A stretch of 64,000 nt of DNA from assembly GCA_902595885.1 (NCBI GenBank), contig CACJRQ010000004.1:1-64000 (forward strand). Direction: 5' to 3'. The notes beneath the pieces were generated by a model. That model was given only the letters and a program-made list of their open reading frames with translations, searched no databases and had not been told where the DNA came from. This document shows, one piece after another, positions 50,080 through 52,428 of this stretch (positions within the stretch are counted from its first letter, which is position 1; each line of letters begins with the position of its first letter). Origin of the DNA: an uncultured Pelagibacteraceae bacterium (lineage in GTDB: Bacteria > Pseudomonadota > Alphaproteobacteria > Pelagibacterales > Pelagibacteraceae). Position numbers and translations under genes: made by a program.

Positions 50080-52428
50080 ATGCATTTTATTAAAAAAAAA
50101 ATTAATTTATTTTTTTATGTTATTTTTTTATTTCTCATAATTCTAAGTATCATTATTCATAATAATTGCAATTTTAACAGGTTAATTAATGTTATTACAG
50201 ATTATAATTATAATTACGCTTATTATTCATGCAAAAAACTTTCAAAATATAATTTGAAAAATTTTATAAAAGATAAAATATCAAATACGTATTTTGAAAA
50301 TGTAATAAGAAGCATTAATAAAAACCAAATCAAAAAATCTTATACTTTCCTAAAAAAAAATAATGAAATAATTAACTATGATATTAATAAAGATAAAATT
50401 CCTCAAAAAATTTTAGGAATTAAAAATGATATTAATCCATTCTTAAAAGAAAAAAATATAATAAATGATGATGAGGAAATAACCTGGAAAAGATCTCATG
50501 GAGGTTATAAAAATTTAAAATACAACAAATCTTCAAATCCAATAAATATAAATAATGTTGAAAATTTAACTTTAGAATGGTCTTACGATAGCATTGATCT
50601 TACAAGTAAACATAAGCTTGATAATGTGGAAGCTAATCCAATATTTCATAACGGAAAAATTTTCTCAGTAACCGCTGATAGAAAATTAGTTGCATTAAAT
50701 GCATCTAGTGGAGAGCTGTTATGGAAAAAGCAAGGTTTACTAACTCCTGCTAGGAGAGGTTTTTTATTAGATCAAGAAAAAGATAAATCCTATATATACA
50801 TCAATATTGGTGAGGCTATTGCCAAAATAAATTCTGCTAATGGAGTTTTAGACAAAAAATTTGGTAAAGAGGGAATTTTATATTCTGTAAATTCACCTAC
50901 ACCTCCAATAATTTATAAAAATAAACTCTATATAGTTACTTCTACAAAAATAATTACATTTGATAAAAATTCTGGAAAATTTTTAGAAAATATTCAAATT
51001 CATCCTAAAAATAAGGAATTTTCAAGAGGAGCTGTTGTTTGGGGTGGAAATGCATTTGATGAAGAAAAAGGGTATCTTTATGTAGTAACTGGGAATCCAA
51101 GACCTGCTTTGATTGGAATTAATAGACCAGGCCAAAATAAAAATGCAAATTCACTTGTTGCTATTGATGTAAACAAATCAAAAATAATTTGGTCCTTTCA
51201 AGATGTATTTCATGATTTATGGGATTTTGACATATCATCTCCACCTATAATTTCAGATTTAAAAATTAATAATAAGTATTTAGAAACTATAATAATATCA
51301 ACTAAAACTGGAAATACATATATTTTTGAGAGAAACACTGGAAATTCTTTTTTTGATTTAGATTTTAAAAAAACAATTCCATCAAACATACCTGGTGAAA
51401 AAGCTTTTCCATATCAAAGATATAATTCACTACCTGAAAAATTAATCAATATTGAATATAATCAGAATAGTTTTGATAAATTAAATAAAAATAAGCAAAA
51501 ATATATCAAAAATATTTTAAAAGACTCTTCTGCGGGGTGGTTTAATCCACCTGAAATTGGAAAAAAAACAATTATATTTGGCCTACATGGAGGTGCTACA
51601 TGGATGGGTTCTGCATATGATCCTATAAAGCAAGTTATTTTTACGCCTGTAGTAAATATCCCTTGGGTTCTTAAAGTAGAAGGAAAAACACTAGAGACAT
51701 CAATTCCATCGAATTTAAAAAAATTAAATAAAATATATCTTCAAAAATGTTCATCTTGTCACGGAAAGAACCGAAATGGTAATTTTGATCCAGAGTCTAA
51801 AAAAAATGTTGAAATCTTAAATGATTATATTCCCAGTTTAATTGGACATTCTCTGTCATTAGATAGAAATTTATATAGTGAATTATACAATTTAGACCGA
51901 ATTAAAAAAATTCACAAAAATATAAAAGTTAACAATCTTGAATTAGAAAAAATTAAAGAACTATTTATTAAACTTGATAAATATCTGCTGGATAATAATA
52001 AACTATTTTTAAGATATTATTGGTATAAATTTTTAGATCAAGAAAATTATCCTGCATCAAACCCTCCATGGGGAGAAATAATTGCTCTTGATGTATTATC
52101 TGGAAAAATTAAATGGAAAACAAAAAATGGTGAAATAAAAAATTATGAAAAAGGTATCTTTAGTGGAAGTCCTAGTTATGGAGGTCTTTCTTTATCATCA
52201 GGAGAAATATTATTTTCTACTGGAACAAATGATAAAAAGGTTTACGCGATTAACTCAAATAATGGTAAGATTTTATGGGATTACAAAATGGATGCTGCTG
52301 GTTCAGCGCCACCATTACTTTATAACATAAATGGTAAACAATATCTGACTGTTATTTCCAGCGGAGGTTTGTTTAGTGAATACAAAGAAAAAGCTTCTAA
52401 AATTTACACTTTTTCAATCAAAAATTAA
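50080..52428 (+). CDS. PQQ-dependent sugar/alcohol dehydrogenase with inserted cytochrome c domain
   Basis: A 782-residue quinoprotein. An N-terminal signal anchor (about 8-27) and a linker precede the beta-propeller from about residue 150. HDLWDFD (378-384) and STKTGN (Lys409) match the catalytic Asp and PQQ-contacting Lys regions of glucose-dehydrogenase-type quinoproteins. FSRGAVVWGGNAFDEEKGYLYVVTGNP, GGATWMGSAYDP and W-motifs such as SGKIKWKTKNG mark propeller blades. A haem c domain with C557-S-S-C560-H561 is inserted before the last blades, as in some membrane quinoproteins. No methionine occurs from 557 to 736, so the usual His/Met haem ligation is impossible. It is one of two plus-strand genes in the island. 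Substrate unknown. Confidence 0.85.
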   Translation: MHFIKKKINLFFYVIFLFLIILSIIIHNNCNFNRLINVITDYNYNYAYYSCKKLSKYNLKNFIKDKISNTYFENVIRSINKNQIKKSYTFLKKNNEIINYDINKDKIPQKILGIKNDINPFLKEKNIINDDEEITWKRSHGGYKNLKYNKSSNPININNVENLTLEWSYDSIDLTSKHKLDNVEANPIFHNGKIFSVTADRKLVALNASSGELLWKKQGLLTPARRGFLLDQEKDKSYIYINIGEAIAKINSANGVLDKKFGKEGILYSVNSPTPPIIYKNKLYIVTSTKIITFDKNSGKFLENIQIHPKNKEFSRGAVVWGGNAFDEEKGYLYVVTGNPRPALIGINRPGQNKNANSLVAIDVNKSKIIWSFQDVFHDLWDFDISSPPIISDLKINNKYLETIIISTKTGNTYIFERNTGNSFFDLDFKKTIPSNIPGEKAFPYQRYNSLPEKLINIEYNQNSFDKLNKNKQKYIKNILKDSSAGWFNPPEIGKKTIIFGLHGGATWMGSAYDPIKQVIFTPVVNIPWVLKVEGKTLETSIPSNLKKLNKIYLQKCSSCHGKNRNGNFDPESKKNVEILNDYIPSLIGHSLSLDRNLYSELYNLDRIKKIHKNIKVNNLELEKIKELFIKLDKYLLDNNKLFLRYYWYKFLDQENYPASNPPWGEIIALDVLSGKIKWKTKNGEIKNYEKGIFSGSPSYGGLSLSSGEILFSTGTNDKKVYAINSNNGKILWDYKMDAAGSAPPLLYNINGKQYLTVISSGGLFSEYKEKASKIYTFSIKN

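Follow-up and report, generated by a model that had tools for sequence, protein, structure and literature searches.

A SAR11 quinohaemoprotein family with an inserted haem c domain and a probable histidine in place of the distal methionine

Introduction

SAR11 bacteria rank among the most numerous cells of the ocean and have few optional genes. In the 64,000-nucleotide stretch of Pelagibacteraceae DNA analysed here (the window), which is part of contig C4 of a genome of 1.1 Mb that is about 84% complete, one gene encodes a PQQ-type propeller protein with an inserted haem c domain that has no usable methionine. This locus raises the question of which residue could hold the haem iron on its distal side, and whether the propeller may still act as a PQQ-dependent dehydrogenase.

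Gene and domain organization

The gene and its parts lie at the following window positions.

50080..52428, + strand: quinohaemoprotein gene, 782 aa (open reading frame listing, Pfam, NCBIfam and SAR11 search)
50101..50157, + strand: membrane anchor at the N-terminus, a hydrophobic stretch of 19 residues (8-26; hydropathy 2.97; model helix 2-30)
50470..51684, + strand: first part of the propeller, residues 131-535 (Pfam PQQ match at 136-536; structural matches)
51685..52050, + strand: inserted haem c domain, residues ~536-657 (alignment of SAR11 and outside relatives)
51748..51762, + strand: CSSCH haem c attachment site, residues 557-561, with His561 as predicted proximal ligand
52051..52425, + strand: last part of the propeller, residues 658-782 (Pfam and structural match)

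The open reading frame, its motifs and their coordinates are as given in a preliminary description of this DNA, which had correctly reported the CSSCH site and the absence of methionine from residues 557 to 736; the only methionines in the 782-aa protein are residues 1, 509 and 737. The Pfam PQQ propeller match is very strong (E = 1.5e-86; 291.9 bits against a gathering score of 26.7), and the cytochrome c matches at CSSCH are weak, being sub-threshold in Pfam. Taken together with the recurrence of a haem c insert at this position in 15 other SAR11 relatives, these matches indicate that the insert is more than a chance occurrence.

The nearest NCBIfam family is TIGR03074, the membrane-bound glucose/quinate/shikimate type. 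The label 'glucose-dehydrogenase-like' names the closest curated family and no more, as the score of 212 bits falls far below the curated cut-off of 832.65. The N-terminus has one strong hydrophobic stretch (residues 8-26) rather than the approximately five membrane helices of TIGR03074. Conservation in the core haem clade extends to two cysteines after the anchor, Cys30 (window 50167-50169) and Cys51 (50230-50232), which perhaps form a disulfide; the pair is missing in L023, L024, L090, L120 and L121.

An AlphaFold model built with two sequences was too poor for use (pLDDT 40). A second model, built with nine sequences and leaving out 14 other SAR11 haem sequences, reached a mean pLDDT of 67 and a pTM of 0.71, with a good propeller. 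Residues 131-782 of this model gave best structural matches, at Z scores of 28-30, to sorbose dehydrogenase, PedH, XoxF, methanol dehydrogenase and quinohaemoprotein alcohol dehydrogenases.

Distribution and phylogeny

The protein had been suggested to be specific to this strain. Relatives were found, however, in 36 of the 397 genomes of the order, 14 of which carry the haem domain. Two forms occur in SAR11, one with a haem c domain before the last part of the propeller and a shorter one without it, mostly of 660-700 residues. The 16 haem sequences aligned here come from the 14 genomes, a second copy in one of them, and L042; the window protein is included. In a propeller tree that included 13 of the haem sequences and was computed by a quick method, with haem columns excluded and midpoint rooting, these 13 group in a single clade (SH-aLRT 99) whose neighbours are the haemless copies of SAR11; the outside sequences all fall elsewhere. 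Within the named genome collection the only relative is on the Pelagibacteraceae contig AG-325-K03; it is 57% identical and syntenic, in a gene order nearly identical to that of the window. In-frame stops interrupt the search matches L020, L024 and L031, which may point to decay or misassembly of some SAR11 copies. Scans of the viral collection with single proteins gave no match. Nothing points to a phage origin: phage records yielded few matches, to Gcd-like genes at less than 30% identity.

Outside SAR11, a haem insert at the same place was found in Spirosoma, Emticicia, two Sphingobium plasmids, one Pseudomonadota genome and two viral-collection contigs. The proteins of Emticicia (WP_015026272.1), Spirosoma (WP_232563247.1) and Sphingobium (BDX59929.1) share with SAR11 the order of propeller, haem c domain and last propeller part. 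Next to the Sphingobium gene on L077 (L077:1-3860) are genes for an oxidoreductase, a protein annotated as AP endonuclease and a separate cytochrome c, and this neighbourhood is a possible sugar-oxidation cluster. In the type II quinohaemoprotein alcohol dehydrogenases (1kv9, 1kb0), too, a single chain holds a propeller and one haem c of class I, but their haem domain is C-terminal and has an MP motif, whereas that of SAR11 is inserted. The architecture is of an already known kind, and what is new in SAR11 is the probable switch of ligand, the loss of the metal loop and the spread of the gene through the group. No description of a SAR11 inserted-haem quinoprotein family was found in the literature searched.

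The haem domain and its distal ligand

Two histidines had been put forward as the sixth ligand of the haem.

51913..51915, + strand: His612 (KKIHKN), proposed distal haem ligand, present in 16/16 (alignment)
51847..51849, + strand: His590 (LIGHSL), rejected candidate, present in 4/16 (alignment)

The haem domains of the 16 SAR11 sequences are divergent, with a mean pairwise identity of 32% and a lowest value of 22%. Only ten columns are invariant (Y553, C557, C560, H561, G562, G567, P585, G589, H612 and D633), and His612 is the sole common haem-ligand residue among them besides the histidine of CxxCH. The alignment contains no conserved methionine or lysine column in the haem domain. This bears out the earlier view that the domain lacks a usable methionine and that the histidine of KKIHKN is a candidate ligand. 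The histidine of LIGHSL, kept in just four of the 16 sequences, was discarded, and a lysine ligand was rejected for want of a conserved column.

His612 lies in the segment where the outside relatives carry their methionine ligand, a few columns before the methionine itself. Every outside relative with the inserted haem keeps an ordinary methionine motif there (GxGxMPxF-like in the Bacteroidota and sphingomonad proteins), whereas SAR11 has histidine. It had been asked earlier whether the methionine is missing in all homologues. SAR11 has no conserved methionine, the outside relatives all have the motif, and one SAR11 copy, on L120 (8001 bases), has a KGMP methionine. After its CQSCH site this 720-aa copy contains both the conserved histidine (FNYSHSY) and, a few residues further on, the methionine of KGMP, and from its sequence it is an apparent intermediate of the switch.

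His612 is thus probably the distal ligand, and from the alignment His561/His612 ligation is the most likely arrangement in the SAR11 haem copies. Because the outside relatives share the same insert with an ordinary methionine motif, the inserted haem itself is not new; the change from methionine to histidine is the SAR11 feature. The simplest account would be that SAR11 inherited an inserted-haem quinoprotein, in which the ligand then moved from methionine to a histidine a few residues upstream.

A precedent for such ligation is MtoD of Sideroxydans lithotrophicus, a class I cytochrome c with a bis-His haem and a potential of +155 mV at pH 7 (PMC4412085). The SAR11 domain is proposed as a counterpart from its sequence; MtoD, however, is a free-standing 11 kDa shuttle with no PQQ domain (PMC4412085). 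His561/His612 ligation should give a lower potential than that of the His/Met relatives, although, given MtoD, the potential need not be very low.

The propeller active site

The following parts of the propeller bear on PQQ and metal binding.

51211..51231, + strand: HDLWDFD, residues 378-384, in which D382 corresponds to Gcd D466 (catalytic) and D384 is the second Asp of D-x-D
51298..51315, + strand: STKTGN, residues 407-412, in which K409 corresponds to Gcd K493
50755..50757, + strand: Arg226, at the alignment position of Arg266 in E. coli Gcd; the same in every group
51040..51042, + strand: Trp321, at the alignment position of Trp404 in Gcd, where the residue stacks on PQQ; the same in every group
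50923..50964, + strand: shortened hairpin, residues 282-295, a clade-wide loop deletion in which the Gcd D354/N355 region is gone

E. coli Gcd, a TIGR03074 protein, is from the closest curated family. The window protein keeps the equivalents of its R266, W404, D463, D466, D468 and K493, and we take the aligned residues to have the roles of their counterparts in Gcd and methanol dehydrogenase. It differs from Gcd in having a haem c and in lacking both the multi-helix membrane domain and the D354/N355 loop. R226, W321, N339, D384 and K409 are invariant in all 16 SAR11 haem sequences.

The catalytic blocks HDLWDFD and STKTGN are present as first described, but the site around them is altered. Between fixed columns the hairpin measures 28-33 aa in 32 of 32 aligned SAR11 sequences, against 38-40 aa in almost every outside sequence (Spirosoma has 34), so that 8-12 residues are missing from the hairpin holding the Gcd D354/N355 metal ligands. 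In the Bacteroidota and sphingomonad proteins, which differ from SAR11 also in the N-terminal anchor present on the SAR11 side, the acidic residue of this loop is mostly kept. Moreover, the catalytic Asp is not invariant: D382 is replaced by Asn in four of the 16 haem copies (L015, L019, L021 and L022), and Asn stands at the Gcd D466 position in all 19 aligned haemless copies, the Asp at +2 being invariant. Loss of the PQQ-contacting residues had been named at the outset as contrary evidence; the pocket residues are kept, while the metal-ligand loop is lost. Since the loop is absent throughout the SAR11 clade and D382 is Asn in these haem and haemless copies, full dehydrogenase chemistry is not certain. 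The haemless copies (L004, L005 and L025-L041) may not be ordinary dehydrogenases.

The window copy, with D382-F-D384, has the D-x-D pattern of lanthanide-type PQQ dehydrogenases, which one study of ocean PQQ enzymes read as lanthanide binding (PMC11996626). This is only a lead, because the second Asp occurs in E. coli Gcd as well and the motif alone is not decisive.

Supply of PQQ and haem assembly

Neither the pqqC nor the pqqE model gave a match above the cut-off in 22 gene-bearing SAR11 genomes, among them two single-contig ones. The PqqE-like SAR11 matches were all below the cut-off, occurred also in all 14 control genomes and look like general radical-SAM matches. As a control, the pqqC search scored above the cut-off in three of eight other Pseudomonadota. 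PQQ, if used, must therefore come from outside the cell. The absence of synthesis genes is in itself not telling, since five of the eight outside genomes with related propellers are likewise without pqqC above the cut-off. A TonB-type receptor is absent in G000 and G012, and six of the eight genomes tested lack one. Genes for haem c assembly are present.

Genomic setting

In the window the gene is surrounded by genes for an O-antigen ligase, a glycosyltransferase, a DegT aminotransferase and a nucleotidyl transferase, and its place in a polysaccharide island had been taken to suggest oxidation of a periplasmic sugar or alcohol. Apart from the window, such surroundings are seen for L042 and a few more copies; the rest lie among housekeeping genes at many different sites. 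This setting is not conserved across SAR11 genomes, and a polysaccharide function by neighbourhood was rejected. The gene behaves like a single gene in variable slots, and its substrate is not readable from its neighbours. One slot is recurrent: in at least seven SAR11 genomes the gene is beside, or within two genes of, what are presumably cinA-like (IIGNEILSGRTQDTNT) and GGCT-like (MLYFAYGSNLNHFQMKRRC) genes near genes that we take to be purB/purC. Haem and haemless copies alike occupy it (L079, L083, L084, L086, L087, L089 and L092).

Alternative explanations and proposed mechanism

The haem could instead be five-coordinate or water-ligated, with His612 conserved for the fold or for contact with the propeller, and the site would then be ligand-reactive rather than a plain relay. 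This was already raised in the preliminary description, and it would fit the absence of methionine, the rebuilding of the region relative to the outside relatives and a model that does not fix the geometry. Most of the haem domain is below pLDDT 50, giving a plausible order of helices but no His-iron geometry. In this low-confidence model one helix (544-561) ends in CSSCH, a second (605-611) stands just before His612 and a C-terminal one (619-633) follows, so that the loop 611-619 with His612 may occupy the usual place of the class I distal ligand. His612 is invariant although the 16 sequences average 32% identity, and it is placed just ahead of the C-terminal helix, in the loop from which class I cytochromes take their distal ligand. 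This argues against an open site, which we regard as unlikely. Ordinary His/Met ligation by a methionine reaching over from the propeller is more improbable still. Met737 is methionine in 11 of the 16 haem members, but it is Leu or Ile in four (one more is truncated), and the haemless copies have Met or Leu at this position too; Met509 is kept in only four and replaced in the other 12. Neither residue is kept in all haem members, which counts against a ligand from another domain.

A further alternative concerns the propeller, which may no longer use PQQ; the protein would then have some other periplasmic job, and its haem domain would carry electrons or act as a sensor. The deletion of the metal-ligand loop in all 32 SAR11 sequences, the Asn at D382 in many copies and the lack of PQQ synthesis genes above the cut-off would agree with this. 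However, a fold alone would not require R226, W321, N339, D384 and K409 all to be invariant; in the window copy D382 is retained as well, and the outside propeller genomes without pqqC weaken the argument from synthesis genes. We consider such a loss of PQQ rather unlikely, if somewhat less so than an open haem site.

The account that we favour, and hold to be reasonably probable as a whole, is that of a membrane-anchored periplasmic SAR11 quinohaemoprotein with scavenged PQQ and a His561/His612 haem relay. The propeller would bind scavenged PQQ with a metal and oxidize an alcohol or a sugar-like substrate in the periplasm. Electrons would pass from PQQ to the c-type haem in the domain inserted before the last propeller blades, its iron ligated by His612 and the CSSCH histidine, His561, rather than by a His/Met pair, and from there to the respiratory chain. 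A bolder version, which is possible but rather doubtful, is that both redox sites have been rebuilt in this SAR11 family, with a bis-His haem c and a metal/PQQ site that lacks the acidic loop ligand, possibly uses D-x-D with a lanthanide or another metal, and takes its PQQ from seawater.

Significance

The probable change from a methionine to a histidine ligand, together with an apparent intermediate in which both residues occur, makes this family a natural setting for testing the effect of such a switch on electron flow in a quinohaemoprotein. Use of scavenged PQQ would imply that some SAR11 depend on their neighbours for this cofactor. If the protein is a periplasmic dehydrogenase, SAR11 could draw electrons from alcohols or sugars dissolved around the cell without having to take them up.
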